Source: Allomyces arbusculus
Taxonomy: Eukaryota; Blastocladiomycota; Blastocladiomycetes; Blastocladiales; Blastocladiaceae
Direction of reading: 5' to 3'
Assembly (NCBI GenBank): GCA_027604705.1
Contig: JADHYV010000010.1
Location: 62,001 to 126,000, forward strand
DNA: 64,000 bases
Shown here: piece by piece, positions 23,523 through 64,000 of the stretch
How positions within the stretch are numbered: position 1 is the stretch's first letter
How the letters are laid out: the number at the start of each line of letters is the position of its first letter
Program-made: the position numbers and the translations under genes
The notes under the pieces: generated by a model
Seen by the model: only the letters and a program-made list of their open reading frames with translations
What the model was told of the DNA's origin: nothing
The model's database searches: none

Positions 23523-23629
23523 TCCAAGCTTGACGACGACGACGACTGCGTGAGGAACGGAGGGACTGACAATGGCACTGTTTTCTATTCTGGAAATATA
23601 CATTCACGCATCCTCCACCCTCTCCACCA

Positions 23630-28463: not shown

Positions 28464-30562
28464 ATGGACGCGGACCCCGCCGCGCATCGGCCGGCAAACG
28501 GCCCTGCCGGCGCGGCTGCATGCACTTCGGGCCCGCTGCCACCACCACCACGGCCATCGACCATCATGACCATGAATGCCGACCAGGATTGGCCCGCGCG
28601 CAGCCACCATCCCGCCTCGACGCTGCCGCCGCGCGTGGCCGCTCCGGAGAGTATGTGCATGCATGCTTGCAGTTGCGGTTCGGGCATGATGACTGACGGC
28701 ACGGCTGATCATCGTCGTGGCCCACGACTGATCCCTAGGCTTCGCCGAGCACCACGCCGGCGCTGATCTGCTCGCGGTGCCGCCGTCCTCTGCAATTGGC
28801 ACCGCTGTGCAAGCCGACCGCGACCACGCCATGGCCGAGGCCACGGTGCATGCCGACCAGGGCGGCGACCACAAGGCCGCCACCGATGTCGATATGCACC
28901 TCTTCCACGACGACCAGGCTGACGACCACGCGTCGCCACTCGCCGCGCTCGACTTTGCCGCCGCATTTGCCGCGTTCGACCGCGAGGCTGCGGCCGCTCC
29001 TGTCCCCGGGCCCGATCGCGACACGACGCGCTCCGCCGACCACGCCGGCATGATCGAGGGGCCGTCGTCGCATGAGCCCATGCCCACCGATCCGCCCCCA
29101 AACCAGCAACCGCCCCCAAGCAGTATCTGCCCGGCCCAGCTGTCCATGGTGCCCGCGGCCCCGACCATGACCACAACGACCACGACAGCCCCACCCGCTC
29201 AGCTCGGCTCAGTCGACGACGTCAACCTACGCATTCTGGCCTTGGTCGCCGTCTTTTGCGACCAAGTCGCGTACCCGACGCGCGCCATCTACTCGCGCGC
29301 GCAATCGCTCCCTTTGTCCCCAACCACCGCAACCACGCTCGCGTCGCACCTGGCCACCTTGATCACCACCCCCACCGCACTCGCACGCCGTTTACGCGTC
29401 TTTGCGCACTCGCACCACATTCTGCATGCTGCACCGACCACCAAGGCCGACGCGCGCGCCGTGCTCGGCGCCGCAACCACCGCCACGACCTTGACCGCGC
29501 GCCTCCGCCCACTCCTCGAGTCGGCATTCACGACCGCGTTCCCGATCACCGTCGCCGGCGGACGCATCGCGTGCCCGGTCGATGCGATCCCGCCGCTGTT
29601 TGAGCGCTCGGCCGACGGGACGATGCTCCAGTGGATCGACGTGCCCACCCGCCACGCGGCCGCCGTCTGGTGGCTCTACCCGGACTTAGACGACGAGATT
29701 CCGCCGCCGTCAATGAATTCGACATCACCAAGAAGTGCAGCCATGGCGCCGGCGGTCGCGGCGCTGCGCGCCGAGGGGACAACGAGTCCGTTGTCGAGCG
29801 TGCACCCGGATGACGAGGACGATGATGAGCATGCCGACAACGAGTCGGAACCCGAATCCGACTCGGAGACCGAAGGCGATGACGACGACCGCCCGTCAAA
29901 GCGCCGCAAACTCGTCCCGCCCACCGCCGCCGCACCACCCGCACCCGCAACCTCGTCCAAGTACCCCACCTGCCCGCAATGCGGCACGTCCCCACGCTCC
30001 CCACTGCGCCGCGACCGCGACGGGAACCTCGTCTGCAACGGGTGCCGCTTACGAGCCGTGCGCCGGCGAGAGCGCGAAGCCGCCTCGGACGCGCACGCGA
30101 CCCCGCCACCCCCAGTGGCAGCCCCTGCCGCCGCGACGAGTCCGCGCCGGTGCACGACGTGCGGTACGGCCACGACCTCGTCGTGGCGCCGCAGCGATGC
30201 GGGACGGAGGATCTGTAACGCGTGCCGGCTGCGCGAGAATCGGCGACGGCGGGCCGCGGAAAAGGCCGCGGAAAAGGCCGCGGCGGGTGGAAGTGGAGGA
30301 GACGGAGCGAATGCTGCGACGGCGGTAGGGGTGGGGATGGGCACGCCGCGGCGCGCGGCGGCCGCGCGGGCGGCGGCGCGCGTGCACGCGGCCGTCTCGA
30401 CGGCGTCAACGTTAAGGGCCGACGACGACCTGACCGACGCTGCTGCTGGTGGTGGCGGCGGTGCAGTGTCCGACACCTCGTCGCTCTCGGCGCCGCCCGA
30501 TGAGGAGGAGGTCGAGTCGGGTTCCGAACACGGCGAGCGCGCCCCCGCCCCCGCACTCGCGC

Positions 30563-30596
<34 letters not shown>

Positions 30597-33500
30597 AGCA
30601 CAATCGTCGACGACGCCCATCTCGTGCGCCGACTGCGGCGCGACCTCGTCGTCGACCAAGTGGCGCAAACACCCGGTGATGGGGCTCACGCAGTGCAACA
30701 AATGCTATCACCGGTCGCGCCGCCGCCGGCTCAAGGAACTCGCGTCGTCGCCGACCCCGCCCGTTCCCGGCCCAACCTCGCGCGCGAGTGGGGCGCTGGC
30801 GGCGGGGGCACGCCGGGCCGCGGCCGATCGTGCCACTGCGCGCCTCGCGCCCCCGGTGACGACGAGCGATGCCGACGCGGCACCGTCGTCGGACGACGAC
30901 GACGACGACGACGATGGCGGTGGCGGACGGCGGCGCAAGTCCGGCCGCCGCAGCGCGCGACTGCAGAATCAGTGCGTCGTTTGCCGCACGTTCTCGGCCG
31001 CCGAAGTGTGTACGCCCTGCGCGCTCGGGATCCCGAAGGGAAAGGCGCGCGACGCGTGGCGGCTCGAGCAGCAGCAGATCCAGCAGCAACAACAACAGAA
31101 AATGCATCAGCCGCCGAGTGCGGCGGTGGACCCGCCCATGGACATGGAGATGGACAAGGAAGAGGTCGCGCCCGAGGCCGGGACAGCTGGCGAACGCGTG
31201 TCGTCGTCTCTATCAAGCGCGGCCGCGCCGACCACGTCGGCGGGACCGGCGGCACCGGCGGCGGCGTTGGCGAGACGCTGTGCGCAGTGTGGAGTCGCGC
31301 GCACGTCGTCGTGGCGCAAGGGCAACAGCGGGAACTCGATTATTTGTAACAAGTGTTACTGCGAGGCGCGGCGGCATGCGGCGCGGGCGAATGCGACCTC
31401 GTCCGAGTCCGACGACCACCATTTCCACGCGCCGTCGCGGGTTCCGGCCGCGCAGGAGCATGAGGTCCCGGACGTGGTTGTCACGGGCCCTGAACAGCAA
31501 CCGCCGCCAGATTCGCATCCACACGAACGAACGCCCGTGCCCGGCAACCAGGCGCAGCAGCTCTCGACTGCGTCCTCATCGGCCTCGCTCCCCGGCATGG
31601 TCGACTCTGCGCTCGGCACCCCCGCCCGGAACCGGTCGCTCGCCGACCTGCCTGTGTCTTCGTCGTCGTCATTGACCCCGACCCCATCGACGAAAGGCCG
31701 GTCGTGCTGCGAGTGCGGCGCGACGCGGTCGTCGAGCCGGTGGCGGAAACACCCGTCCGGGCACGGTCTCATGTGCAACAAGTGCCACCACCAGTCGCGG
31801 CGTGCCGCACGCGCCGCGTCGGTCGCGTCGTCGGTCGCGAGCGACGCGCCGGCCACGGCGGCCGTGGCGGCCGAGGATATGCCGATGCCGCCGCCACCGG
31901 CTGGTGAAGGGATTGATCAGCTCGTCGCGGCATTGCACCATGCGATGGACGAACCCGCCGCGATCCCGCAGCCAAGCGCGACGGCGTTTACGCACGCCTA
32001 CCCGCACCTTCACCACCTTGCGCATGAGACACGCACGCCGTCCCCGCTCCGCGGCCCTCCGGTCGTGGTCGCCGACGTCCCCGGCCCGCTACGGCGCACG
32101 CACCTCAACTTTGCCATGATCGTGTGGTCGGCGATCGCCGCCGACCACGCACAGCACCCGCGGCGCGTCATCTACAGCAAGAAATTCGCGCTCGACGAGT
32201 CGTTCCACCTAACGCCGGCCGACCAGGCGGCCCTCGTGCACCACGGCGTGCAGTGCATTGCCGCGTGCTTGCACCGGCCCGTCTGGCAGCAGGCCGCGCA
32301 CGCGCCGAGTTTGGTGGCCGCCGCGAATGTCGAGCAGGCGCTGTTTGAGATTCGCAATCCGGTGGCCACACATGGACGGCCAAAGGACGTGCATGTGCCG
32401 GCGATGATGCAGCGGTATTTGGCAAATTTGATGGCGACGTGGGGCGAGGAGGAGGAGGTAGGGTGGGTTACGCGGTGCGGTCGCGTCGTGCCGCCGATTT
32501 TGGCGAAGCCGGTCGTGCGTGGCCGCGTCGCGCGCGCAGGGTGGACGACGATGGCGGGCGCTGAGGTGTTTTGGGCTCCTGAGACCCAAGCTGTGGCCGT
32601 GGCGCCAGGTGGGATGCAGCCGGAAGTGCATCACGGCGATGCGGAGGCGATGCAGGTGGACCGTCACTGCGATGGGGAGCGTGATGCCCACGAACTGCCA
32701 CAGCAACAACCACAACAACAAGAGGTACGCGTCTGGCCGAATCGGACCGCGACATGTTTTCCGACATGGACTGACTACTGCACGCTATGACCGCTAGTTT
32801 CCCGTCCACTTGCCGCCCGTCGCGACGACCGATACCCCGACCAATGTCGCGCCGGCGTGGATGCACGCCCTCAACTTCAAGCAACCCGTTTTCGACCAAA
32901 GCCATTCATTGAACTTGATTTCAGACAACCACAACAACAACAACAACAATTCCAACTACCCGATTCCCGGCCTCGCGCCACCACCACCACCACCACCACC
33001 ACCACTTCCAGCTCCGGCCGACCCGCCGCTCATGGTCACGCTACGTCGCGCGGGCCCCGCCGTCCCGGGCACCGCGCCCGCGGCGCACACTGAACCCGTT
33101 CTCGATACCCTCGACGCGCTGGCCGCGTCGGCCGCACTCCATCACCGTCATCATCCGCAACCCGTTGACTTCCCGCCGCATTCTCGGCAAGGCACCTTCG
33201 CTGCATCTGTGCCCGCGTCGCCGCTCATGATGGACCCGCGCCTCGCCGCCGCCGGCAGCACGAGCTACTATGCGCCGCATCCCCAGCACGACCCGTACGC
33301 CGCCGCCGCTCCGGGCCACGACGACGATAATGACGACGGCATGGACCTCGACGACCACGACACCTACTATGACTACGGCTCCCCACAACCGACCCCCGGC
33401 ATCCTGTCCCCCTTGGGCCTGCAATCGCCGCTCATGTCGCCGCACTTTGGCGGCGCACACCACCGGCAACGCACGCACACGGCCTACCCGCAAATCATCT

Positions 33501-33895
33501 ACCCGGCGTTCCCGTTCCTCTCCTCCTCGTCTTCCACCGCCCGCGCCCCTCCCGCCGCATCCATGTCCGTGAATTCGAATGCGCCGCGGTGCGCGACCTG
33601 CCACACGACTTCGGCCAGTTCGTGGCGCACCGACCCGTTTTCCAACACCGTGCACTGCCGCCGGTGCTACCGGTCAGTCATGGCCGCGCGCGTTTGTGTC
33701 ACGTGCGCGTCGTCGACGGCGAGTTCATGGCGACGGGATGCCGAGGGGCGCACGCAGTGTAACCGGTGTAATTTGCGCGCGCGTCGGGCGGCTGCCGCGG
33801 CAGCGACGAGCTCGGCGGGGCAGAGGAGTAGTACGCCGGATGCGCCGGCAGGGGGGCGGAGGGGGAGTAGTGGGACGTCGCGCGGGTCGCGGTAG
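28464..33895 (+). CDS. GATA-like multi-zinc-finger protein with two D domains
   Basis: Three exons (28464-28650, 28739-32724, 32798-33895) encode 1,756 residues with matching phases. A D domain near the N-terminus (29209-29700) is followed by an acidic patch and RPSKRRKL, a likely nuclear signal. GATA-like fingers (CxxC, 17-18 residues, CxxC) begin at 29971, 30151, 30624, 31279, 31705, 33590 and 33695; a degraded one starts at 30973. Typical finger core: SSWRR or SSRWRKHP, then CNKC or CNAC. A second D domain of the C-terminal type lies at 32089-32600, between fingers 6 and 7, and is followed by poly-Asn and poly-Pro. Classic GATA factors keep a basic GLYYKLH-like tail after the last Cys; here it is RLRENRRRR or similar, so GATA-site binding is not assured. 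The likely role is nuclear DNA or chromatin binding. The start is the ATG that splices in phase to exon 2. Confidence 0.8.
29209..32600 (+). repeat. Two D-domain copies in the zinc-finger gene
   Basis: Copy 1 at 29209-29700 keeps the opening pattern (LVAVFCDQ, PTRAIY, LPLSP) and the closing one (IPPLFE, LQWIDVP). The last copy at 32089-32600 is of the divergent type found tenth in genes A and B (NFAMIVWSAIAADH, IYSKKF, VFWAPE). Their presence in a gene with GATA-like fingers links this gene to the array genes downstream. Confidence 0.75.
32925..33005 (+). repeat. Trinucleotide repeats coding poly-Asn and poly-Pro
   Basis: An AAC/CAA run (about 32925-32950) encodes Asn and a CCA run (about 32988-33005) encodes Pro, inside exon 3 of the zinc-finger gene. 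Both are likely to vary in length. Confidence 0.85.
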
Positions 33896-34473: not shown

Positions 34474-37400
34474 ATGCCGCCCAAAAGGCGCGGCACTGCG
34501 CCAGTCACGCGCCGCAAGAGCGCGCGCCTGGCCGTCACCAACGGCGATCACGGCGGCGGCAGAGAAGCGGATGCGATTCGCGCGCTCGACGGCAACCATT
34601 CTGACACGCAAAGGCACTACGTTGAAACGAACAGCGATGTGACGCGCGCAGGCCCGGGTCCAGGCAATGGTATCCTCCAATTTCACGCCATGTTGGCGGT
34701 GACTGGACAAGGGTCGAGTTCCAACGCTGACTCTGGCCGTGGTTTGGACCTAGTGCCCGCGGAAACGGCCTCCGTGCCCACCACGCTCGCTCGCTTGCCG
34801 CCGTCCACTGCCACGAGCGCGCTCGATGCGGACCGGATCGTGCGAATGGACGTCGGTGCCGACCACGGCGCGAGCACCGCCGTGATCCTGCCAACGCATC
34901 CCGCTCCGGCCCTCCCACAGCCGGCACCAGAGCCCGATGCGCACGCCTCGCTCGGCGACTTGACCCTGGCCGACGGCAACCTCTGCACCATCCTGTTTGT
35001 CGCGGCCTACTGCGACTTTCTGCGGCACCCGGACCGCCCGCTCTACCGGCAGACCTACCCGCTGCCGCTGCCCGACCACGTCGTCGCCGACCTCGCCGAG
35101 GCCCTCGTCGACATGCTCTCGGCCAAACCCAACCAGCCGGACCGCGCCGTGCGCCTGCTCGCACCCTCCAAATGGACCACCGACGCGTCCGTGGCGGTCC
35201 CGCGTGCCGTCGACGCCATGATCCGGTCCAAGAAACTGGTGCGCATCCATCTGCTCGATATGGCGGTATCGCCCACGACCAGCAAGGCGAAACGGACCCG
35301 CCGCGCCCTGCCGAATCCCGAACAGTCGAGCGCCGTCGTCGACGCGATCAAGCGGTACTTGACGACCTGGGTGCCCGTTCTCGTCAGCGCGGGCGGCGGG
35401 TTGCCGTTTGCCGAGGTCGCAGCGAGCGCGAGAAAGTTTCAAATGGGGGTCACGGCGATCCCGTGTATTTTGGACGCGGTCGAGATGGGCGAGGACGGCG
35501 ACGGGACGCGCCACGTGCAATGGACCGTGGCACGGCCCGAGGCCGCGGCTGCGGCGCGGTTCCTGTGTCCGGGTCTGAGCGGCGAGATGCCGGCGGCGGC
35601 GACGGCGGCGGCGGCGACCGCGAACGACGAGGTTGCTGCGGAAGTGGCCACCCCGAACGGCGGGTTTGCAGTGGGCGCGGCGGCCTTGAACGGCGAGATC
35701 ACGGCAGAGGCGACGACCACCGACGGGGATAACACGGTAGCAGCCACTTTGAAGGACGGGGTCGCGGCGGACATGGCCAACTCGAACGACGACATTGCGG
35801 CGGCCGAGCACTTGGGCGCTGATTCGTCGCTGGGCAGGGACTCGGCCCCTGCTGCGGCTCCGACAAACGCGTCACCGCGCGCAAGTTCCCCCACGGGTCG
35901 AGACAGTGGTGACCCAGAAGTGGTTGCCGCGCTGCCGCATTCACACACGCTCGAACCGCGACGGCCGCAAGTTGCGGCTGCAGTCCCTACGACTCTCGAC
36001 GTGCACGTCCAGCAACCGTCGTGGTCTTTACCACCACCGCCACAGTCCGACGTGCCGGCTCCAGTGCAACCGCAAGATGCTGCTCTCACCGAAATCGTCA
36101 CGCCGAATCCGGTTGAAGAGCCGGTTCCGGCGCCACCACAACCTGTCGTTGCTCCCGTCGTGCCTGTCAAGTCATCGCTGCCCGAAGCGCCGGTCCCGAC
36201 GCTCCCGCAAACTACTGCTGATTCTGCCGTGCCCACCGCGTCACCGCTGCCCGACGTGCCGTCACTCCTGCAGCCGCAAGCCGCGGCGGCCCCCGTCATG
36301 CTCGATCCACCACCGGCGCTGCGGACATCTGAAGCTGCCGCGGCCCAGACACCGCCGCCACTGCCGCCCGTCGCAGACCTTCTCGCCACGCTGACCCCCG
36401 CCGACGGCAACCTGTGCGTCGCGCTCTTTGTCGCCGTGCACGCTGACCGGCGGCGCAATCCGGGACGGCCCATCTACCAGCGCACCTTCCCGGTCCCGCT
36501 CGCGCCCTCTGATCTCCATGACCTCGTCGAGGTCCTCGGCGACCTTCTCGGCAGCGGGCTCGACCGGCGGCTGCGGTCCTTTGCCGGCTCCGACACGGCG
36601 CGCGCCGTCCAGACGCAGCTGCGCGTGCGCAAGACCGTGCGCGTCGCTCTCGTCGAACACGTTCCAGGGTCCGCAGCACTACCGATTTCGGCGCGCAAGA
36701 AATTGGCCGAGCAGGACCCGCACCGTGCGCCCGCTGTGGTCGCCAAGATTCGCGAGTATGTGACAACGTGGGCTCCGGCCATGCTCGCCGCGCCCGCGCA
36801 GGGTCTGCCATTCCTGATTTCTGACACGGTTGGCGTTATCAAGTACCCGATTACCGCGATCCCGTGCGCGTTTGACCTCGGTGAGGACGACGCGGAGGGT
36901 CGGCGCGTCGTGCGCTGGCATGCACGCACCAGGGATGCCGTGCGCGCGGCCGAGTTCTTGTACCCGGGGTACGCAGACGAGTTGGGCGCGGTGGAGGCGG
37001 GCGAGGAGGCGGCGCAAGAAGAGCAGCGGCAGGATGTGGAGATGGGTGAGGGGCACGGGCAAGACGTGGGTGTGGTCGATGGCCAACAGCAACAGGACGC
37101 GCACGTACCACAGGACCAGCAGGAGGCCATGGACGTGGACCCTCCCGAAGCCCCCAACGTCGTCGCCCACCAGGACCCGAACCCGTGCCAAACCCGAGCC
37201 CAGCTGACACCGGCTCCCGGCCCGGCCGTACCACCAGCCAACGCGCCGAACCCGACCGCCATGCTGACGCCGACGCTCACGCCGATCCAGCAGAACGTGC
37301 TCGCCACCATGTTCCCTGCCGACGGCAACCTATGCATCCTGCTCTTCATCGCCGCCTACATGGACCTCGCCGCCGGCACCGACCAGCCCTTCCACGCGAC

Positions 37401-40400
37401 CACGTTCCCGTTGCCCCTATCGGACACGGACATCACCGTCCTGACCATGGCACTAACCCGCGCGCTGACCGCCGGCGCCGGCCTCGACCGGCCCGTGCGC
37501 GCGTTCCCCGACGCGCCCGTCGCCGCAGGCCCAAGCGCGCACAAACTCGCGCGCACTATTCTCGCCGAAATCATTGCCCCACACGAAATGGCCGTTGGCG
37601 CGATGCGGCTGCAGGACGCCGACGTGCGCGCGTCACCCGCGCTCGCAACGCTGGTGCGGAAGTACTTGACCGAGTGGGTCCCGGCGGCGCTGGGACTCGG
37701 CGGGATTCCCGTCGCTGGGGGGGCGATGGTGCCGCTCGCGCTGGAGACCGTCGTCGGAACGGACGGACGGCGTGCGGTGCGGTGGGTCGCAGACACGCCG
37801 CAGGCGGCGCAAGCCGCCAACTGGCTGTACCCCGGTCTCAGCGAGGAAGTCGTCATGCTGCGCCGTGCGGCCGAGGAGGCAGCCGAGCCGGCGCGCGTCC
37901 AGCAAATGGCCGCGGCCGTGCCTGACGACGCGCCGTCGCCGCAGTCCCGCGGCACCGACACGAACGGCGGCGCGCCCACGACCGCGATCGACGGTGACGT
38001 CCTCGCGGAACTATCGACCATCGCGAACCGCAACCTGTGCATGGCCCTCTTCGCCGCGGCCTACACCGACCACCGCGCGCACCCAACGCGCGCAATTTAC
38101 CATTCCGACTTCCCGCTGCCGCTCAGCCCCACGCACCAGGCACAGATCGTCGACCACCTCGTCTCCACCCTCGGCGACCACCTGAGTCTCCGGCTGCCGT
38201 TCCTCATCGAGTCCAAGTCGACCACGACACAGGTCGTGATCGACCGCCGCCGCACGATCCGACTCGTCTTGTCGGACCTCGGCACGTCGGGGACGCGCGG
38301 GCGCGCGTTGCTGAGCAAGACCCCGCACATGCACCCGTCCGTACGGCAGGCCGTGGAGCGGTACGTGACCGCGTGGATCCCTGCGGTCACAGAGTTCCCG
38401 GTGTTGGCAGACGCCGTGGGGGGTGTCGCCGCGGTCCCGCCCGCGCTCGAGGTGTGTGAGAGTGAGGATGGGGCCCGGGTGTTGCGCTGGACGGGCGCGA
38501 CGCAGCGGGCGGCGGTCGCGGCGAGTGGGTTGTTTGCGGAGAAGGGCAGGAAGCCGCGGGGTTTGGCCCACCCGACGGCCGATGTAGAGCCGAGCACACC
38601 ATTCCCGTACGTTGGTTCGACTGGGGCTGTGCGGAGAGGTCAGTTTCTCACCTGCTGTTGGATTGGTTCTAGGCCGCCGCTCGCAAGTCGGTCGAGTAAG
38701 GGCACGGACGGCGCCGATGCCGGTCCCGGATTCGAAGCGGAGGATGCGGTCCACGACCGGAACGAACTGATGCGCGAGGTCGACGCGAGGCGCGCAGTGC
38801 CCGACCAAGATGGAAGGATGCATGACCGCGAGGATGCGCAGCGCGACCAGGATGAGCCGATGCGCGAGGTCGATGCGGTGCCCGTCGAGTTCGACGCGGA
38901 TCGCGCCCAGAACGACGCGAATCGTGCCGAGGCTGACGCGAATCGCAGCGATGACGACGCACATCGCGACCATGAGACTGTTGTGCGCGCCCCCGCCAAC
39001 GCATCCCCCAGCCATACCGACGCAGCTCACGTCGAGACTGGCGCACTTGCTAGCTCCGTCGATGCCGCCGCCGCCGCGGCCTCCATCGACCCGGCGACCG
39101 AGTACTCGTCCGTCCGCATGCGCAACGCGTGCATCGCCCTCTTCTCTGCCGTCTATGACGACCAGCGCACGAACCCTACGCGCGCCATTTACCAGACCAC
39201 CTACCCGCTGCCGCTCATCGACCACCACCGCGCGCAACTCGTCGACCACCTGGCCACCCTTCTCGGCGCCCGCCTGAACCAGCGGCTCGCCTTTTTCGTC
39301 GAGTCCAAGACCACCGTCGCGATCGACCGGCGCCGCACGATTCGCTTAGTTCTCGCCGAACTGATTGTCGGCAAATGCTTTACCACAGGGTCAAGACCGT
39401 CGCTTAGCAAAGTCCCGCACCGCCACCTGCTTGTCACGCAGTATCTCGAGCGGTACTTGACCGCGTGGATTCCGGCGGTCGTGGGGAAGGCGGGGTTCCC
39501 GGTCCCGGCGGGCCTACTTCCCGTGGACGCAATTCCGGGCGTGCTGGACGTGGACGTGGGCGAGGACGGGCAGCAAGTGATGCGCTGGGCTAATTTGCCG
39601 GAGCGGGGCGCGGCGGCGGCAAGTGCGTTGTTGGCGGAAACGGCCAAGCAGTCGCGGGATTCAAGTCGCACGCCGCAACGGTCGCGGGAGTCGAGCAGTG
39701 CCGCAGAGCGGGCCGACGCGCAGGCGAGCGCACCGCACACGCCAACGGAACCGTACGTCTTTCGACTGCCATCTTTGTCTCCCGCATTTCAACGGTGTTG
39801 ACCATTTGCACTTTGTCTAGCCCGCAACCGGCCGCCGCCCTGCCGGGTCTGGGCACGGCGCTCAGAACCAGCGCCCCGCACGAAAACCCTGTCGTCGAGG
39901 AGGATCATCATCTGACGGTGGGGCCGACGGCAGGCGACGTCGACGAAGCCCACGGCCAGGACAACGCAGTTCGTGGCCAAGAGGATGCCGTCAATCGCCA
40001 GAACGGCGCGGTTCGTGACCAGGACAATGCCGTCGAGGGCCAGGACGACGAAATCCGCTCCCTAGTCAATGCGCTCCACGGCTGCGTCGACGCGGTAGGC
40101 GACCGGGACGACGCAGTTGGCGACCAGGACATGGCCGAAGACTACGAGCCCGGCGAGATCTGCGACTATATTGATTCTGCTCGTGACAATGTCGGCGTGG
40201 TTGGCGAGCGCGTCGATGCGGTGCACGGTCGAGAAGAGCCGATTGACGGCCAGGAGAAGGCCGAAGCTGAGAAACCCGGCGAGATTCGCGACCAAGTTGA
40301 CCCTGTTCACGACGAGGTCGGTGTGATGGGCGAGCATGCTGACCCTGTGCACGACCGTCATGAGGCGAACGGTGACAAGGATACCGCTGAGGCCGATGAG

Positions 40401-50600: not shown

Positions 50601-53600
50601 GTGGACGACGACCCGGGTCATGATGCGGCCGACCATGACGCGCAAGCTGTCGTGGCGGCGCCCGCAGCCTGGTCGCCACGCGACTGCAACCTATGCATTG
50701 CTCTCTTTGCCGCCGCGTACGACGACCAGCGCACGCACCCGAAGCGCGCGATTTACCAGTCCGAGTACTCGCTGCCGCTCACGGCTCCCGAGACGGCGTT
50801 GCTCATCGACCATTTCGTCGCTCTCCTTGGTGACCGGCTGAACTTGCAACTTGCCTTCTTCAACCCACCCAAGCCTGACGCGCCCGACGACGGCACCATG
50901 AACAGGCGGCGCACGATCCGGACCATCTTGACGGAACTGCACGCTGACGCCAACGTGATTGGCCGCGCTGCGTTCAAGGCGATTGGCCGGAACGCACATA
51001 TGCACCCGGCCGTGCGGCTCGCGATTGCGCGGTACCTGACGTCCTGGATTCCGTCGGTCATGGATAGCGCGGGGTTCCCGATCGCGGCGAAGGGCGTCGT
51101 GGCTGTGGACGCTGTGCCGGCCGTGCTGGAAAGGCACGTGCGCGGCGATGGGCATCAGGTGCTGCAGTGGGCCAAGTTGCCGGAATACGCTGAGCACGTG
51201 GCGAATGCGCTGTTTTCCGAAATGGTCAAGCGGTCGAGGTTTTCGGCAAGCCAGGCGGTTGGCTGGGAACCGGCCGCGACTCACGGCGACGACCATGCTG
51301 GCGCGGCCAATAATGACGGTGGCGCAGCTCGTTACCAAAGCGACGCGGTTCTTGGTCAAGTCGATGCGCCCCGTGACGTTGCGGGCAGCGAGATGCGCAA
51401 TCAGGCCAACGTGGCTCGTGGCCTGGCCGATACGGCCGGCAAGCACGTCGTGGTGCACGGCCAAGTTGCCGAGGGCCAAATGGGCCTGGCCGACGCGCGA
51501 CGCGATTACGGCGACTACGACGTCACGATGCACGATCAGGATGATGCGATGCGTGACCATCCGATACGCGACCACGATGTTCCGATGCACGAGGTTGACG
51601 CCGTGCGCACCCCCGCCAACGCATCCCCCGGCCACGCCGACGCAGCTGACGTAGAGCCCGGTGCACTTGCCCGCCCTGTCGATGCCGCCGCCGCTGCGGC
51701 CTCCATCGATCCTGTGACCGAGTACTTGGCGATCCGCAACTGCAACGCGTGCATTGCCATCTTTGCCGCCGTCTACGACGATCAGCGAACCAATCCAACT
51801 CGGCCGATTTATCAAGACGTCTACGCGCTCCCGCTCACCGACCAGCACCGCACCCAGCTCGTCGACCACTTGGTGTCGATCCTCGGCGAAAGGTTAAACC
51901 ACCAGCTGGCCTTTTTTGTCGAGTCCAGGACGGCCATCACAATCGACCGGCGGCGCACGATTCGCTTGATTTTGTCGGAAGTCGTGTTGGGGACCCGTGT
52001 CACGCCAAGCGCTCGTCAGTCGCTCAGCAGGACCCCGCATAGCCACCCGGCCGTGCGGCAGTGGATAGAGCGGTATTTGACCGTGTGGATCCCGGCCATG
52101 GCGCAGACACCCGGGTTCGCCGTCCCGTCGGGCATTCTTCCGGTCAACGCCGTTCCCGGCGTATTTGAGATGCAATATGGCGAGGACGGGAAACAATTGC
52201 TCCGCTGGCCCAACCTTTCGACTCGAGATTCCGCTGCGGCCGACGCCTTCTTTGCCGCGACAGTCAAGAAGTCCAGGGATTCTAACCGGACGTTGCAGCA
52301 GGCCATTCTCGCTCTAGGCACGCCGCACACGCCTGAACCGTACGTCCCTTGCTTGTCACTTTGTCTCGCGCATTCCACGTGCCTGACCGTCTTTTCCGTG
52401 TGATCTTGATAGGCTGCAACCAGCGGGTCCGTCGAGTGTGGGCACTGAACTTGACCTGGGTGCTGCTCTCGAATTGCCTGTGATCGATGCTAATCGCGCG
52501 GCGGCAAGCAGTGCGGTCGACCGCATTGAGCTCGGCGGTGCGACCCGCGAATCGTTCGACCTCGCTCACGACCCGGCCGTCACTATCGTCCGCGTTCACG
52601 ACGATGCGGTGCACGGCCAAGACGTTCCTGTGCATGACCAGGCCGACACAACGCGTGTCCAGGACGAGACCGTGCATGACTATCCCGAAGCGGCCGTACA
52701 TGACCGTCACGACGGCCCCCCCGCTCCAGTCGGCGCGATTGTCAACCAGCAAAATGTCGCCGCCAGCCAAGACGTCCAAGTGGACCCAGCCACCGAGTTC
52801 ACGTCGACCAGCAACTGCAACTTGTGCATTGCCTTGTTTGCCGCCGCCTACGACGACCAGTGCAACAACCCGACGCGCGCAATTTACCAAGACGAGTACG
52901 CGCTCCCGCTCACCGACGTGGATACCGTCCACCTCGTCGATCATTTCGTCGCGTTGCTTGGCGACCGGCTGAACCTGCGCTTGTCGGCATTCACGAGCCC
53001 CAGCGAAATCAACTGGCGCCGCACGATCCGTGTTGTCTTGATCAACCTGATTGTTGGTGGAGCGGATACCGCCCGCGCCGTTCATATGTTTGGCAAGACC
53101 GCGCATTTGCATCCGGCCGTGCGCCAAGCGATCACGCAGTATTTGGTGTCGTGGATCCCGGCGATTGCGGGCAAGCCAGGTTTCCCGATCCAACCGGGCG
53201 TCGCGGCCGTCAACGATATTCCTGCTGTGCTCGAGCAGATCGACCGCGACAACGGGCAGCGCGTTTTGCGCTGGAAGAACCTGCCAGAGTGGTGCGGTCT
53301 CGCAGCCACTGCGCTTTTTGCGGGCACGGTCAAGCGCTCGAAAAGCTCAATCTCCACGCCTCAGTGGGCCGATGTACAGCCGAGTACGCCGTCGCGGTTG
53401 GAAGAAGCGGGTGCCGCGCGCGCTTCATCTGCAGTTGAGCGCCCCGCTGATGTCGCGCACAAGCGAGTCGACGCTGCAGGTGATCAGGACGGCGGGATAC
53501 TCGACCAGGACATGGCCGACCGTGGCGTGCCCCGTGCCATGACCCACGACCACGTTGGCCCTGCTCGTGACCAGCAGGCCGCCGGGGTCGTCCACGAGCG

Positions 53601-56600
53601 TGCCGACGACGGGAATCCCGGGCCGGACACGGCCGTCGGCGATGAGGCCACCGTGGCCCAGGGCTTGGCCAGCGCGGCCCACAACCACGAGGACGCGGCC
53701 CGCACCGAGGTCGTTACGGCTCCCAACCAGGGTAGTCCTGCTGATGCACCCCAGCCCAGCATCGCCGGCGTCGCGGTCCCTGCAAGTCCAGCGGCCGGCG
53801 AGGCCCTGACAATCGGCAACTACAACTTGTGCATTGCTCTCTTTGCCGCCGCGTACGAAGACCAGTGCACCAACCCGACGCAGCTGATCTACCAGACCGA
53901 GTTCCCGCTGCCGCTCACTGACGAGCATCGCACGCTGATCCTCCATCACTTGACGACAATTCTCGGCGACCGGCTCAGTTTGCGCATGACGGCGTTTGCC
54001 AGCACGGGCGCCATTTGCAAGAAGCGCACGATTCGCGCGGTTTTGACAGAACTGTATGCAGACGCGAACCTGGGCCGCGGGGCACTCCAAGCACTCGGGA
54101 AGGCGGCGCATGTGCACCCGGCTGTGCAGGAACAGTTGAAGCAGTACCTGACGGCGTGGATTCCGGCCGTCGCTGGGTCGCCGGGGTTCATGATCCGGAC
54201 GAGCGAAATTGCTGTCCGGGCTGTTCCAGGTGTGCTCGAGCAGATCAACCGTGACGACGGGCAGAGCATCCTACGCTGGCTAAACCTTTCGGAGCGCTGC
54301 GGCGCTGCTGCCAGCGCGTTTTTTGCGGGCACGGTTAAGCGGTCGAGGGACTCGAGCCACACGCCGCAGCGTCCCGCGTCGCAGCCGAGCACGCCGCAAC
54401 AACCGGCCGTACCGTACGCAGTCCGACTGAAGCTTTGCCACTGAAATCGCTGAGAACTCAAACTAACCTATTTTTGCGTTTCGTTTATTTCAGGCTGCAC
54501 CAAGCGACGCCATCAGCTTTGCATTCCGATGTCAACTCACCTGGCAACTCGGGTCGCACGGTTCGCGATCAGGACGAGGATATAGTCGATCATGAAGGTG
54601 ACGCACCCGTGGACCACGTCGAGGTGGTCGGCGACTCGAACGTGGGCGCGGTCGCCGATTTCACGACGACCGACAACGTCAACGTTTGCATTGCTCTGTT
54701 CGGTGCTGTATACGACGACCAGCGCAAAAACCCGGCGCGGTCGATTTACCAGGCCGAGTACGCGCTGCCGCTGACGGCCCCCGAGACGGCGAGACTCGTT
54801 GACCATTTCGTGACGATTCTTGGCGAGAAGGCCGATTTGCGACTGGCGGCGTTTACCACCGAGGGCACGATCAACAGGCGGCGCACGATCCGCGTGGTCT
54901 TGGCCGAACTGATTACCGGAGGCAAAGAGATGACTCGCGGCGCGTTCCAATATCTCAGCAAGACGGCGCATTCGCACCGTTTCGTACGGCAAGCGATCGA
55001 GCGGTACCTGACGACCTGGATTCCCGCTGTGTCGGGCTCCCTCGGGTTCCCAATCCAGACCGGCGTCGCACCCATCAACTTTATTCCATGCGTGCTCGAG
55101 CAGGGCGCTCGTGACGATGGACAACACGTGCTGCGCTGGGTGAATCTCCCGGATCGGTGCGGCGCAACTGCGAATGCCGTCCTTTTCGAACTGGCCAAGC
55201 AGACGCTGGCTCAGTCCAATCCTGCCCTGAGAGCGCAAGACTCGCCATCATCGTACGTGATCTCTCATGTGTATCTCTCTTGGATGAAACCCGATCTCAC
55301 TCGTGAGCGTTTTGCTCGTCTTGCTTCAAGACGGCCATCGACTGCCTCAAGTTCCCGCTCATTTCACTCCAGCCTTATCGTCACGTCCGGGTCCGCTCAA
55401 GTCGACGGTGACGCTGCAGCCGAGCCAGTTCTGGCCCAGCCCAACGGGATCCCGGCTCTCGAATCCGTGGCTGCAAGCAACGATCTTGCCATGGATGCGC
55501 AGCCAGTCCCCGACCAACAATCAGACAGCGATCTCTCGTCGCTCGACGAGACCGGCGATCGCTCTTTGTTTGACGAGGACGACGAGATTGATGGCGCGAT
55601 GGACGAGCGACCAGAGCCCAACTTGGCGGCAGTCGACAAGAATAACGTGTGCATTGCCCTGTTCGCCGCCGTGTACGACGACCAGCGCTCGAATCCGACG
55701 CGTGCGATCTACCAAGACGAGTACCCGCTGCCGCTCTCCAACGAGCACCGCGACCTGCTCGTCGACCACTTGGCGTCGGTTCTTGGTGAGCGGCTGAACG
55801 TCCGACTCGCCCTCTTCATCAAGACCCGGACCGACGGGTCGATTGACCGGCGGCACACGATTCGCATGTTCTTGATGGAACTGTTTGCCGGGCCGCGCGC
55901 GCGCGTCGTTCGCCAGTCGCCACTCGGCATTGCGCCCCATCTCAACCCGATCGTGCGGCACCATCTCGAGCAGTACCTGATGACATGGATTCCGGACCTT
56001 GCGGCCGGCTCGCCGGGGTTCTCGATCCAATCCAGCGCCTTGGCCACCGATTTCATTCCGTGCGCGCTCGAGCAGTACAGCCGCGACGACGGCCAGCGCG
56101 CTTTGCGCTGGATTAAGCTTCCCGACCAGTACAGCGCAATGGCGCAAGCCTTCTCCTCGGATCCCGTCAACCGATCGCGCGACTCACGCTCTCGTGATAC
56201 GGATCCGAGCGCGCAGTATCCTGTCGAGGAGGGTGTTGCGGCTCGTGTTGATGACGAAACCGCCGACGGATTGACCCCGACCGGTGACCGTTCGTTGGCT
56301 TCGCAGTGGGCGCTGGCCAATTTTGGCATGATCGTCTGGTCGGCCGTCGTCGACGACCAGCGGCGTGACTCGACGAACCCGATTTACGGCAAGTCGTTTA
56401 ACCTTTTGGCGAACAAGGAGCTGGACCGGCCACAGCGCCATGAGATCATTGCGCACCTTGTGCAGTGCTGCGCAGCCGCTAATTTAAAGACTGTATGGCA
56501 AGTACCGCCGCACGGGGCAGAGCAGCAGCAACAGCAAGAGCTCGTCCCGATGACCGTGTCACACGCGATGCGGTTGATTGTGAATCCGGTCCGCAAGCGC

Positions 56601-59224
56601 GGCCCTCCACGGTCTGCCCGGCTCACGACGTTTGTGACCGAATACCTGGACGCGCTTTGCGGCCAGATTGACCCCGCACCGACTTGGACGACGCCTGCTG
56701 GCCAAGCGATTCCGCGTGTTCTCGACCACGGCCCAGTCGCGCCCGACGGGACCGGAACTTTGACGTGGAGCGCTCAACTCGCGTCATCAACGGTCTTGTT
56801 TTGGGCGCCCGACAGGATCACGCCGGTCGATTACAAGGAGGTCCGGTTGCGGCGGCTCAAGTCGGCAAGCTCGAAAACGCCCTCGCGACCAACAATGGTG
56901 GCCCCAGTGTCGTCGAGCGCAAGTATCCTGCGCCCCCTTTCAACGGTTCGATAGCTTTTTTTCACTCGCATTTTCTCCACCCATTGTCCTCATCTATTCT
57001 TTCACCTGCCCACCAGAGCCGTCCCGCCGGCCATGAACGCGCAGCAGCCGAACTCGCGGCGTTCACCAATCGGTGCCAAGTGCGACTCTGCCGTCTTGTC
57101 GGACGACTCGAGCAGCACATGCTTGCGACACTTCATCTGCCGGCCAATCGTGACAACATGGGCGAGGTGCTGACCGCGTGGTCGTTGCACGTCAAGAACA
57201 CGGCGCACATGCAGGGTCCGGCTACCGCTGCCGGGTCGACCCTGTCTCTGGCCCCGACCACGGTTGAGGACGACTTGGCACCGTACTTGGCCTCGTCCCT
57301 CGCGTCGAGACTCGCCACCGAGTTTTCAACCCGGGTCGGGTCGCTCACGGATGCCGAAGCCGAGGCAATGTGCCGTGCAGTGCGCGACGTGATTGAGCGC
57401 ATCCATGAGCTCGCCGACGACTCGTCCGCGCAAGCCGACTACCTGTCGCAGTTATACGAGAATGGTGCACCGTGGGCGCAGGCCATGCACGCTGCACTTG
57501 ACGCAACGTGGGACCTGTTCGGCACGCTCAACGTGCAACGCACGCCGGCGCTCGCCGTCAACGTGGTGCGCGATGCCGTTCTTGAAATGGTCACGGGTCT
57601 CGCCGCGCTCGCGCGCGTCGGTGTCCGTGCTGAGTTCCCGGCGCTCGGGTGCGGGTACGATGCGCCGCGGATGGTGGCGATGGGCCCGCCGGTCGCCACG
57701 CCTGCCGCCCATCAAGAGCGGTTCCCGGAACCGGCGACGCCGCAGCTGCAAAGTCCTTCGGATGCGTGGTCGCCGCTGCTGTTGACGAGTCACCCGGCAA
57801 TGCCGCCGCCGGCCACGCCCTCGCCACGACCACCACCTCCCGCATTCGGTTCCTCTGCTTCCTCCGATACAAATTATGGCCAAGCCAGGAAGCGGCCCCG
57901 TCCCGTCGAATCGGAACGCGTTGCGGTGGAGCCTCGGTCCTGTGTCGATTGCGGCGACACGGAAGCGTTTGAGTGGAGCCAAGATCCGATCAGTGGGTGC
58001 TGGATGTGCAACACTTGTCGGCGCCGGCGCCAGCTCTCGGCCAACACGGCACCGCCGACGGCGTCAACATCGGCGTCCGGCTCGCACCCGAACTCGTCTC
58101 GTGCGCCAAGTGCGGCCGATTCGAGACCCGAGGGCGTTCCGCTCGGCTCAGGACGTGTCGAGCCCGCACAAGGCGCGGGTCATGTCGCCCTGAACGAAAC
58201 GCCCGCGCCCAGTAAGCGGCCCCGCACGGAGCCGCCAGCGCCGCTTCCCTCGCCAGGCCATTCTGGTCGATTGCCTCGGCCGTCGCCCACGGGATTGCCG
58301 TGTGCGGGCTGCCAAGTGACGGCCAGCAAGCTGTGGCATGAGGCCGGTCGGTATTGCGCAAGCTGCGGTCTCAAGCGGATCCACGCCGCGCGCAAGCAAG
58401 CGACTGCTGACTCATCATTGAGCCCCAGTGTGCCTCCTCGTATCGAGCTGCCGCGCGACTTCGCCGGGCCTCGCAGCGGCGGCGGCGCTGGTGCAGGCGA
58501 TGGTCGCGATCCTGCCATCAACAACGAGCCAGCCGATGTGCACTCACTCAAGCGGCGCCACATCTCGCTCGAAGCGCCTCAGGCGCTAGGCCAGAGTCCA
58601 CGCATGCCTCGGCCGTCGCCCACGGGCATGCCGTGTGCCGACTGCCAGGCGACCACGAGCCTGATTTGGTTCGAAGCAGGGCGGTACTGCGGTAGTTGCG
58701 GCCGGCGGCGGGTCCGTGCCGCGGCCACGACGGCCAAACAATCGCCGGCGACCCCGTTGTCGGGGTCGAGCGTGTCGGATCGTCCTGACACGGCTCGCGG
58801 CGAGGCTCGGCCCGTGAGCGGCGATGGCATTGGTGCTGCCAATGATCGCCGCCGCGCGTCCGAGCAGGAGCCCGCCGACGCGCCCTCGCCCAAGCGGCGG
58901 CACGTCGAGACGCTGCAGTGCGCGTGCGGTGCCGCTGGGCCTGCGGACGCGACATGGTCGCGCGATATGCACCGCAACCCCGTGTGCGCCGCATGCCAAA
59001 AGCGGACGCGGACCCACGCGGCGCCGATTGCGGCGGTACCCATGCCGCCGCAACCACAGACATCCACGTTGCCTGCGGGTGCAAGCAGCTCGCTGACGGG
59101 CACGCCCTCCCATGCGCAGCTAGGCGCAGCGGTTTCGTCAGTCGAGGCGCCTGGGGGATCGAATGCAAGCGCAAATCTCGAGCGGCCCGAGGGTGTTGCC
59201 GAGTCTCAGCACGAGACGGGATGA
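47634..59224 (+). CDS. Gene B: tandem paralogue of gene A with ten D domains
   Basis: Seven exons (47634-47991, 48057-48125, 48205-52339, 52413-54413, 54494-55252, 55331-56945, 57017-59224) encode 3,714 residues with all phases matching. A short low-complexity N-terminal exon and a 69-nt microexon precede ten D domains in the same order as gene A. The helical domain (57040-57670; RLCRLVGRLEQHMLATLHLP) follows. Four zinc fingers start at 57941 (GATA-like, CxxC-17-CxxC), 58301 and 58633 (short-loop CxxC-14-CxxC) and 58919 (CxC type). The extra short-loop finger is an internal duplication absent from gene A, including its leader PRPSPTG. The intron between copies 4 and 5 of gene A is absent here. 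The role is unknown; likely nuclear. Confidence 0.8.
48328..56815 (+). repeat. Ten D-domain copies of gene B
   Basis: Approximate copies: 48328-48905, 49120-49735, 49914-50470, 50667-51230, 51713-52260, 52787-53330, 53797-54335, 54649-55195, 55623-56165 and the divergent 56296-56815. Each is most like the copy at the same rank in gene A: for example copy 3 shares CILLFVAAYMD, copy 7 IGNYN, copy 8 the GEKADL and LSKTAH stretches, and copy 10 NFGM. Confidence 0.9.
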
Positions 59225-59614
59225 ATTGCGTTAAGATACGTTTGACGTTGTCTGTGCCGGCCGGTGCCGCCCGAGGGCGGGTCGCACATGACGGCCGGTG
59301 ACGCGTGTGGAGTTTTGTTTGTATTGTTTTGGAATATTTATCGATTACTGGTTTCGTTGAGCTACGTTGGACTTGAGATGTCTGGAGATGTCGCGGGACG
59401 GACGGGTTGGAGGATGGAGCTGATGGCGAGCGTCAAAGCAAGGCGAAGGCGAGGCAAGCCTACACTATGACTGTCTGGTCCACGTCAAACCCACGTCACT
59501 CTCTGGTGACTTTGACTTGGTGTCCTGGACAAGCTCACGGCGTCGCCTGGTCAAGCGGAGCTGGCAACGCTATTGCGCGATGTTGCTTCTGCCGCGAACC
59601 ACAGCCAATCCTCC
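59225..59614. other. Spacer between genes B and C
   Basis: 390 bases between the stop of gene B and the start of gene C. It presumably holds the terminator of B and the promoter of C. I see no gene and no clear promoter element. Confidence 0.5.
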
Positions 59615-62600
59615 ATGAATTCATCAGCAGGCATGGCACTCGCCGCCGTGAGTGGAAGCGTTCATGCTCATGAGCATGGCGACGCCGACACCGCACGGGA
59701 CGACAATGGTCCTGCCACCATCCAACCGTTGGCGCAAGTAATACCGCTACCGCTGGTTCCACCATCGATGCCAATAACGACCAAAAGAACAGAGTCGTCG
59801 AATTTTGGCGCATCATGCAGCAGCGAATGCGTTCCGGCACCTCATCCTCAACAGACAATGGCGATGGGCGAACACAGCTTGGCCGTCGAAACCGAATTTG
59901 CGCCTGTCCCGCTCGTTCAACGGCACGGCATCATTGAGAGTGATGGTATTAACGTGACGCCTTGATGAAAGCGTTGTCGCTTGTGTTCCTGACGCTCATT
60001 GATGGCGTCCCCAGCTGAGCCAACGGCTGCATTGGGCAGTTCAGCAGGGTCAAGGACGGGGAGCCCGAATGCGCACGCCGATGGTAACTTATCTCCAAGT
60101 GGAACTGTTGCACTTTTTCGGTGTGAGAAGCAGTTCTAATCAGAGATCAACGGCCATGTGTAGCCACGACCAGCACCAGGACCAATGGTCACGGTGAGCT
60201 GCCCCAACTGCTATTCCCCGCATCGACCCCCGCGTCGCCACCGCGAACGCCCAAACCGAGCGACCCGACGCTCGACAAAGTCCCGTACAAAGACCGCAAC
60301 TTGGTCATTGTCCTGTTCCTCGCCGTCTACCTCGATCAGGCGCGAAACCCGAACCGCGCCATCTACCAGCAGTCCTACCCGCTGCCGCTCAGTGATGAGG
60401 ACGTGACCACGATCACGACGCAGTTGATTCACGTCCTGACCGCCAGCGCCGAGCTCGACCACACGATTCGTGTCTATAGCTCGCTGTGCGGTGATGGGAT
60501 CAGGGTTGCGCCGCTCGCCAGAGGGCTTGGGGACAACCCACCACGCTCGCTCGAAAAGGTTCGCATTATTCTCGCCGACGTATTTTCCAGCAACCTGGAC
60601 TCGGACACGAATGGGATCGTGCACACCGAGCCATTGGTGGTGCACAACTTGCACGCCGATTCTCGCATTGCTCGTCGTGTGCGTGGGTATGTCGACCTGG
60701 CCAGTCGACTTGTTTTGTCTCGCAACGAGCTCCAGTTTGGCGTTTCTACGGCTGCGGCTCCTGTCGATTGTCCCGTGCGTTCATTGCCTGTCGTGCTCGT
60801 CGAGGCCAGCGATGCCGATGCGCATACCGCGTGCCGGTGGACCAATTTCGTGAGCAATGCAGATGCCGTCGTGGCCGCGCGCTGGTTCTACCTGGACCTG
60901 GACCGCGTCCACATTGTCGATGGCAACGCGCTTCCCATCGATAGGATGCCGACCGAATCGCGCGAGGAGGAGGGCCCGGCCGCTGTGCCTGACCAGTCCG
61001 TCCCACCCGAACCTGATTTGCCGGCCCCGCTCGCCGAGCTGACCTGGATTGACGGCAATTTGTGCATTGTGCTTTTTGTTGCCGTGTACTGCGACATGCG
61101 CTCGAACCCAACGCGACCTATCTACCAGCAAGCGCTCTCGCTCCCGCTCTCCGATCAGGCCGTGACCGACTTGACCGACGTTCTGCTCGACATCCTGACG
61201 ACCGGATCTGGTCTTGACCGGAATTTACGCTCGTTCGCGGCTTCATCGACCCCTGTGCGACATCTCCCGCCGTCGCTTCTTAACCATGCGCGCAACACGA
61301 TGGTCCATTGCGCTCAGCACCCACGGAAAATGCGGCCCAAGGAATTGGCAACTCTGGCCCGAAACAACCCGCACCGCGTGCAAAAAGTGATTGAGCGGAT
61401 TCGAGCATACTTGACGATCTGGGTACCCGCCATGTTGGCCGCTGAGGGGCGCTGTGGGCTGCCGTTTGCCGCCCCGGGACCACGCTCGACGCTTGAACCC
61501 CCGAACAACGTTATTCCGTGCATTTTTGAGCTCGCCGCTGGCGCTGACCGTGCATCGTCGCACCCGCTTCCACTCCAATGGGCGGTGACCAAGCCGGACG
61601 CTACTGCTGCCGCGCAATTTCTGTTTCCCGACCTGTCGCGCGAGTTTCCACCGCATCCTGAATCTCGCTCGGCGTCACGCTCGTCCACCCGCGTGGCTTC
61701 ACACTCGCCAGCTCGCTCGGCGTCATCTCGCCCATCCTCCTCGCTTTCTACGCTGTCAACTCCTAGCTCTCGGATAGTTGGCGTCGATGGGGACACGGAA
61801 ATGGATGGCAACATGCCACCCAGCGGCGGTTCTGGCCCGGATCGCTCACGGGGTCGTCTTGACAATTTTACGGTACTCGACGGCAATTTCTGCATTGTCC
61901 TCTTTGTCGCCGTGTATGTGGACCGACTCCACCACCCGGAGCGCGCAATCTACGAAAAGTCGTTCTCGTTGCCGATTTCCAGCGAACACGTCACCGAGCT
62001 GGTCGGAGTGTTGTGCAACGCGTTGACGACCGGCCTCGGCACTGACCGCCAACTGGTCGGGTTCCATTTTGTGCGGTCTGCGCGTCAACCCCCAGCAGCG
62101 AGTGTCGCCAACCAGCGAATCAGGCATGAACGCAAGGCGAAATCGATGCTCCTCGATTGCTTAGCCTTCGACCCACAAAGCAGTGTGCACGAGCGCCGGC
62201 TTATCCAAAATCGGGTGAAGGTCCCAGTACTGCACCGCTCGCCAGTCGTACTCGCCAAGATTCGGCAGTATCTGACGACGTGGGTCCCTGCCCTGCTCGA
62301 CGACGGCGGGCTCCCGTTTTGCAGCACGCCCTCGTCGAGTACTGCCACTGGACCTCCGTTCTCGGCAATTCCGTGCATTTTTACCGATGCCGGTGGTGCA
62401 AGCGCCGACGCGGCCGAGCACCGGTCGGTACGATGGGCCACAATGACGGACGACGTGCTGAGCGCCGCTCGCTTTCTCTGCCCGGGACTTGACGGCGAGA
62501 TTGCGATCATGCCCGACGCCGACTCAGGCGTGCTCGATTCGACGGCAAGCTTGCTCGTCCCGCTGCCGCCCCCGCTGCTGCCGCCGGTTCTCTCCGACTT

Positions 62601-64000
62601 GACCACGGTCGACGGCAACGTGTGCATTGCGTTGTTTGTCGCCACGCACATGAATCGGCTCTTGTGTCCGGACCATCCGATCTTCCGCGAGTGCTACACG
62701 CTGCCCCTGACCGACGACACAGTTGCTAAGTTGACCAAGGTCTTGATGCACGCTCTGACCACTGGCGCCGGCCTCGGCCGCGTCCTGCGCACGTTCCAGG
62801 GTCTGAAGCCGAACACGTCTGATCCGGACAGTACCGTCATAGTCCAAACCCTCTCCAAGCGCGTTTCGGCGCGAAATGCCCTGGTCGATTGCATTGTGGT
62901 GCACGAGGCCACACCCATTGACAGGAGTGCTCGCTTGCGTATTTCAAGCGACGATGTGCGTGCCTCGCCCGCAATTGCCGAACAGACTCGACGCTACTTG
63001 ACCGAGTGGCTGCCGGCCTTGCTCGAGTCCGGTGGTCTGCCGTTCTCCGTGCCCGGCAGCAATGCATTTGGAACCATTTTCCCTGTCTTTGACCGCGTCT
63101 CCGACGATGGTGGACAAGTCTCGATCCAGTGGGCGCAGGCGACGGCCGAGCGATCAGACGCTGTCCGGCTGTTGAATTTGAAATATGACGAGGAAACGAA
63201 GCACGCGCAGCTGCCCGTACTGTCGACGCTGTCGACGCCCGAGTTGCCGGCCGTTCTCCAAGACTTGCGCCCGATTGACGGCAATCTCTGCACCGCGCTC
63301 TTCGTGGCCGTGACCTGCGACGCGCGCATGCACCCGGACCGCGCCATCTACCAACAATCCTACCCGCTACCGATGTCCGCCGACGTGGCCGCGACCGTGA
63401 CAGAGGCGCTGCTCGGCACGCTGACCGCTGGCGCCGGAATGAAGCGCACGATTCGTGCGTTCCCGATGCGGCGCACCGGGCAGGATCTGGATTCGCTGCG
63501 CGCGACGGCCGAGATCCCGCAATCCTCCAAGATTGTGCGACTGCTGCTCGCGCAACTCGCACGACCCGCACTTCGTACCTACAAGCTTGCAGAGGTCCCG
63601 AACCCGCACCGCAGCCCCACCGTCGCCGACCATATTCGCCGGTACCTCGTTGAGTGGACCCCAGCACTCATCACCGCGGGCGGCCTCCCGTTCCGTGCCA
63701 AGGCGGGCAAGACCTCCATCGAGTCCTCTATATGCGCTGTCCCTTGCGTCTTTGATACGGCTGTCGACGAGGCGTCGGGTGATCGCGTGCTCAAGTGGGC
63801 CGTCGAGGCGCCGCACAAACTCGCGGCCGCGCGGTACTTGTACCCGGAATTTGACAAGGAGCTGGAAAAGTATGCCGTGGCCGACCTCGACGGCGGCGAC
63901 ACGCCCGACGACGACAAGTTAGGGTTGACGACAGTCAACTGCAACGTGTGCATTGCCCTGTTTGTCGCCGCCGCATTCGACGACCAGGGCCAGAACCCGG
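59615..64000 (+). CDS. Gene C: third D-domain gene, cut by the window end
   Basis: Exons 59615-59945, 60015-60083 and 60164 to beyond 64000 give an open protein of more than 1,400 residues. The first exon (MNSSAGMALAAVSG) and a 69-nt microexon match gene B in length, phase and donor (GATG followed by GTATTA). Six D copies are visible: 60271-60930, 61030-61655, 61858-62510, 62590-63190, 63256-63865 and one starting at 63922. All but the last are of the long DGNLC type, so the order differs from genes A and B. Copies have longer inserts between the IYQ and RYLT motifs. A Ser/Arg-rich linker sits near 61660-61740. No zinc finger is visible yet; any would lie past the window. The final exon stays open to base 64000. 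Confidence 0.75.

Follow-up and report, generated by a model that had tools for sequence, protein, structure and literature searches.

What kind of protein is encoded by a locus of Allomyces arbusculus at which a single domain, here termed D, recurs again and again in adjacent, very large genes? The window, i.e. the whole stretch of 64,000 nucleotides that was analysed, comprises bases 62001-126000 of contig C10, and the entire genome (25.9 Mb, 197 contigs) was searched as well. In the window, a six-frame HMM search seeded by one copy detected 28 D copies, all 28 on the + strand and with the same count in five of five rounds, which agrees with the number of repeats given in the earlier note. 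Copies 1 to 27 are whole (29224-63831) and the 28th is cut by the window end, its first 18 residues lying at 63943-63999. Once flanking DNA is added, D28 spans positions 1-160 of the 166 in the profile, which makes it almost whole, and is followed by four further copies, bringing the array to 32 copies from 29224 to 71068 (window numbering), distributed over five gene models of a single locus. The four adjacent genes named in the earlier note are thus those in or entering the window, whereas the locus as a whole holds five. Domain E-values of the 32 copies range from 3.5e-25 to 3.8e-66 and are partly circular, since the copies trained that profile; in the negative controls, made from array-region fragments, reversed sequences gave a best E of just 0.1 and shuffled ones of 0.57.

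Single copies were also used as queries against the whole genome. With one D copy, 28 of the 32 were recovered at E-values no higher than 8.6e-4, those missed being exactly the four of class III, and a lone class III copy matched all four members of its class and two others at just E 0.04 and 0.13. Matches of both queries were confined to contig C10, these counts being lower bounds. According to the HMM envelopes, D has a length of 148-195 residues, so that the repeat itself stands and its previously proposed size of about 175-200 residues does not. Likewise, the sequence motifs quoted earlier as fixed points of the domain apply mainly to class I and not to all copies: just N1, A9 and W155 are identical throughout the 27 whole copies of the window, and residues D13 and P138 are conserved in at least 90% of them. 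The gene models and domains of the window are as follows, with D coordinates taken from the HMM search and D classes from the tree of copies.

28831..33895 (+) gene A model, 1,663 aa; open model, intron candidate and Pfam GATA
29224..29667 (+) D1, divergent, unplaced
32107..32568 (+) D2, class III
34474..47185 (+) gene B model (4,141 aa), encoding D3-D12 (ten copies), one domain H and GATA-like fingers
34978..35556 (+) D3, class II
36409..36951 (+) D4, class II
37327..37818 (+) D5, class II
38032..38523 (+) D6, class I
39124..39621 (+) D7, class I, copy used for structure prediction
40635..41123 (+) D8, class I
41577..42065 (+) D9, class I
42548..43033 (+) D10, class I
43517..44014 (+) D11, class I
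44198..44656 (+) D12, class III
44993..45853 (+) domain H of gene B, profile match
46070..46504 (+) two GATA-like fingers of gene B, by pattern; the first 17.6 bits, the second with 14-residue spacing
48243..59224 (+) gene C model, encoding D13-D22 (ten copies), one domain H and GATA-like fingers
48351..48884 (+) D13, class II
49149..49706 (+) D14, class II
49935..50441 (+) D15, class II
50688..51203 (+) D16, class I
51744..52241 (+) D17, class I
52819..53307 (+) D18, class I
53824..54312 (+) D19, class I
54681..55172 (+) D20, class I
55644..56144 (+) D21, class I
56319..56795 (+) D22, class III
57068..57751 (+) domain H of gene C, covering 1-219 of the 285 profile positions
57941..58699 (+) three GATA-like fingers of gene C, by pattern; 18, 14 and 14 residues between cysteine pairs
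60127..64000 (+) gene D, open frame truncated at the end of the window; D23-D27 whole, D28 start
60298..60873 (+) D23, divergent, unplaced
61057..61614 (+) D24, class II
61885..62469 (+) D25, class II
62617..63165 (+) D26, class II
63283..63831 (+) D27, class II
63943..64000 (+) start of D28, class I, which runs to 64467 outside the window

Raw frames of the array are apparently joined by short introns, some of which lack stops, so that the raw frames run through them as if they were coding; introns were predicted by a consensus scan (GTACGT...YAG), not from transcripts. Gene A, with one candidate intron at 32725-32797 (phase 0), encodes D1, five GATA fingers, D2 and two more GATA-like fingers, and H was not found in it. 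For gene B, four candidate introns, all of phase 2, are predicted (38607-38672, 39753-39820, 42194-42276 and 43135-43203), and after their removal the joined model is free of internal stops over its 4,141 residues, in line with the very large proteins proposed earlier. Gene C has two phase 2 candidates (52340-52412 and 54414-54493), and the join between its D22 exon and its H exon lies somewhere near 56800-57070. Outside the window, gene D goes on through D28 and D29 to H and a pair of GATA-like fingers, and gene E, which lies entirely beyond it, carries three D copies and H. A GTACG[TC] donor with an in-phase acceptor follows 8 of the 13 class I copies. These introns are of phase 2 after D6, D7, D9, D10, D17, D19 and D20 (the last with a donor present and an acceptor that is only tentative) and of phase 1 after D18; the same scan gave no such intron after D8, D11, D16, D21 and D28. 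As a model, growth of the genes by duplication of symmetric exons would fit these phases.

The window has a GC content of 53-72% (in 2 kb steps), at which long frames commonly arise by chance, and many of its frames overlap. Both points would fit a reading of the array as non-genic, with frames that have decayed or are open by chance in GC-rich DNA. The probability that we assign to it is negligible. Across the ten B/C domain pairs, dN/dS (Nei-Gojobori) amounts to 0.21-0.61 and is below 1 in every case, with pS of up to 0.56, which makes the dS estimates rough. Up to D22, the D residues of genes B and C are 64.4% identical with a dN/dS of 0.34 and 23 B residues unaligned, compared with 43.9% identity, a dN/dS of 0.48 and 621 unaligned B residues in the linkers; the alignment retains the possible intron after D20 in gene C. 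For all 496 copy pairs, pN is smaller than pS in 95%, both being near saturation (medians of 0.53 and 0.62). With the values found in domains and linkers, the substitution pattern speaks for translation of the frames and for constraint on D. Chance or untranslated frames were rejected on account of dN/dS together with the reversed and shuffled controls, and the contrast between domains and linkers, the repeated phase 2 introns and a confident structure model (see below) likewise stand against them.

By sequence, the majority of D copies sort into three classes in a midpoint-rooted maximum likelihood tree. Class III (D2, D12, D22 and D29) is separated by a fully supported branch; class II (D3-5, D13-15, D24-27 and D31) and class I (D6-11, D16-21 and D28) have support values of 92/92 and 94/94, respectively, below those that the program marks with a star, and D1, D23, D30 and D32 are unplaced. 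Profiles of the classes match one another, with E 3.4e-37 for I and II, 1.1e-8 for I and III and 2.4e-8 for II and III. Nine of the ten domains of genes B and C pair by position in the tree, eight of them on starred branches (support for D12/D22 is 94/78), and D6/D16 is the sole positional pair that is not grouped. This pairing makes it most likely that a ten-domain gene was duplicated whole, giving rise to genes B and C. Genes B, C and D have a common build of class II copies, class I copies, one class III copy, H and GATA-like fingers, with gene D displaying one unplaced, four class II, one class I and one class III copy. Gene A, with class III last of its two copies, and gene E, with no class III among its three, depart from that order. 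Tandem genes that differ in copy number (2, 10, 10, 7 and 3 from A to E), the many divergent D copies and the uneven D6/D16 pair, which hints at exchange, would also be expected of a fast-evolving recognition locus (self/non-self or parasite conflict) with D copies as variable receptors. The dN/dS values of the ten B/C pairs, averages that can hide a few diversifying sites, argue against such a locus, as does the finding of no known sensor or effector domain in the Pfam-scanned array frames, and we regard this explanation as quite unlikely.

The description of D as a domain that belongs to no recognisable family was borne out, since profile comparisons with Pfam, NCBIfam, PHROGs and PDB sequences gave nothing convincing. 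When the 27 whole window copies were scanned singly against Pfam, no family was found above cut-off in any of them; weak matches comprised seven families in one copy each, the best being TPR_TTI1_2nd (E 0.0058). The latter is the least random of these matches, since besides the single copy it turned up with 12.6 bits (cut-off 27) in the frame containing that copy and with 11.2 bits in the consensus of class I. Kinship of D with TTI1 TPR, RHH or STAS was nonetheless rejected, all of them being far below the Pfam cut-off. Four D consensus sequences reached a best E of 0.028 in Pfam, and the 27 copies gave best E-values of 0.014 in NCBIfam and 0.088 in PHROGs, with each family in a single copy. 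Against PDB sequences, the profile search yielded no match (best E 0.19 and 0.87). Among the matches listed in the open-access literature (titles and abstract openings, few subscription journals), no paper on D was found.

An AlphaFold2 model of D7, based on an alignment of the 27 window copies, has a pLDDT of 90.8 and a pTM of 0.86 and shows the element order H H E H E E H H H E E H, so that D is probably a compact, independently folding alpha/beta domain. Comparison of this confident model with known structures by Foldseek gave no significant match in PDB or BFVD, which leaves the earlier view of D as unrecognised in place. Nothing was found at E 0.001 or less in 350,542 PDB chains, where the best match was SAMHD1 (E 0.54, TM by query length 0.18) and TM by query length was at most 0.20 among the best 50 of 116; in BFVD, the best E was 0.14, with a TM by query length of at most 0.22 among the best 50 of 247. 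The main rival to a scaffold function, unlikely in our judgement, is that D represents a nucleic-acid-binding module, possibly of two tandem winged-helix-like halves, and that the proteins contact long DNA or RNA. Although the element order of the model may loosely be taken for two successive sets of three helices plus a hairpin, no sequence kinship that would indicate an internal duplication was found between the halves (hhalign E 0.53). Similarly, ESCRT-II, LmrR and LOTUS chains, which we take to be winged-helix folds, are among the non-significant Foldseek matches, but the best of all, SAMHD1, is not a winged helix, and the low TM values apply here too. Class I has an RRRTIR helix start, yet the domains are not strongly basic, with net charges between -6 and +8.

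The co-occurrence of D with GATA-like fingers, proposed earlier, was found in four genes, with genuine fingers in gene A and patterns in genes B, C and D. A script pattern (CxxC, 14 to 22 residues, CxxC) occurs seven times in gene A, twice in B, three times in C and twice in D, and five more matches on the - strand were judged by eye to be Cys-rich chance frames. Five stretches of gene A match PF00320 with 64.8 bits at a cut-off of 26.8, and its last two fingers (23.8 bits) and finger 1 of gene B (17.6 bits) lie under that cut-off. For the finger frame of gene C (P0006), no Pfam family was found at E 0.1, and the list of 28 GATA matches in the genome does not include the fingers of gene D. A 14-residue spacing is present in three of the five fingers of genes B and C. 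Among the frames scanned with Pfam, the first frame of gene A and the frame after gene E are the only ones above the GATA cut-off. D and H were absent from short stretches around the 23 GATA matches outside contig C10. Six GATA-like fingers are located directly after gene E (73565-74960 in window numbering; end of L030 and L031:3-1250); stops separate them from H, and they may belong to gene E as an additional exon or form a finger gene of their own.

Domain H, with a profile of 285 positions, occurs once each in genes B, C, D and E. In a genome search, these four were found together with one short piece on contig C82 (E 2.8e-4), which lies at L074:5733-5852 (G000:C82:20733-20852), is broken by an in-frame TAG and is perhaps a relic of another gene of the array family. 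H had no convincing match in Pfam, where a single one of the four members reached the best E of 0.019, or in PDB sequences (best E 1.1). A structure model from the four sequences was poor (pLDDT 39.7), making 'helical' a weak prediction; hence, the accompanying helical domain of the earlier note is present in four copies and its helical nature is just weakly shown. Capture of D or of a whole gene from a mobile element or virus by the host would account for a domain that has no relatives in the collections searched, was multiplied at one place and is accompanied by a broken H piece elsewhere. We nevertheless deem this very improbable. Pattern scans, which detect close relatives only, revealed no relative of D in IMG/VR viral contigs (two D queries, and likewise one H query), prokaryote genomes or plasmids; D is unmatched in BFVD by fold and in PHROGs, and Pfam detected no transposase or integrase in 19 array and flanking frames.

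Several other genes were observed around the array and elsewhere in the genome. Just downstream of it, a homeodomain gene (L031:3248-5170) and a cyclin gene (L031:6713-8620) lie on the - strand. At 369-6293 of the window, also on the - strand, a 1,974-residue frame starts with a weak resemblance to glycosyltransferases and contains a REJ domain of 78 bits, and four TPR-repeat frames are found at 16112-23533, one of which may resemble ciliary TPR proteins. The genome further holds two type-1 rhodopsin genes, on contigs C7 (L033) and C15 (L034), and the C7 frame continues into a guanylyl cyclase domain. An 80-residue piece of this cyclase matches the PDB entries 6sir ('nucleotide cyclase', E 8.6e-36) and 6ao9 ('bacterio-rhodopsin/guanylyl cyclase 1 fusion protein', E 4.7e-35), which presumably derive from Catenaria and B. 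emersonii, with 56 and 55 of 67 residues identical, respectively, as counted from the alignments. One passage in the literature calls the rhodopsin-cyclase fusion unique in Blastocladiella emersonii (PMC8371127), and a passage in another paper states that certain chytrids also possess rhodopsin cyclases (PMC12264004). The presence of the fusion gene suggests a zoosporic fungus, most probably one close to the blastocladiomycetes.

Returning to the proteins of the array, their long linkers, many weakly charged D copies and GATA fingers suggest DNA-anchored scaffolds. Our preferred, if tentative, reading, a little short of an even chance, is that they act as very large nuclear or DNA-anchored scaffolds with GATA fingers for anchoring and D copies for docking. 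It builds on the repeats, the class order, the confident model, purifying selection and the co-occurrence with GATA fingers, all of which are observed; a nuclear location, DNA anchoring and docking by D are what we infer. The zinc fingers would tether the protein to DNA or to partners in the nucleus, and the D copies on their variable linkers would be arranged like beads on a string, docking several partners or each other, with a multivalent chromatin or transcription scaffold as the outcome. In our judgement, the net charge of D is more in keeping with docking than with direct contact to DNA. For the largest array proteins, DNA binding is putative, the fingers of genes B and C being below the PF00320 cut-off or unmatched. 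A bolder and somewhat unlikely proposal is that D constitutes a new fold that arose or persisted solely in zoosporic (blastocladiomycete-like) fungi and was spread by duplication of exons and genes into DNA-anchored proteins of up to about 4,000 residues, the nuclear scaffold system that they form having no counterpart in other eukaryotes.

With at least 32 copies at one locus, under selection and unmatched in the libraries searched (none of them of eukaryote proteomes), D is a promising candidate for both a novel fold and a novel regulatory system in a lineage that branched early among the fungi. Its novelty holds against these libraries and could be lowered by a eukaryote-wide search. As D is compact, its structure and partners are directly testable.

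Compared with known systems, the helix and hairpin order of the D model is loosely similar to that of winged-helix domains (LOTUS, LmrR, ESCRT-II), but no significant structural match was obtained by Foldseek. The likeness to GATA zinc-finger proteins (PF00320) lies in gene A and the finger frame past the array, both far above the cut-off, and in the other array fingers, which keep CxxC...CxxC and partly the W and CNAC residues; to our knowledge, fungal GATA factors have no repeated domain of 150-195 residues and never reach 4,000 residues. Large modular scaffold proteins consist of tandem folded repeats on flexible linkers. From these, the array differs in that its repeated domain fits no named family tested, and it resembles them in its many copies of one domain, its variable linkers and its tandem duplication of whole genes.
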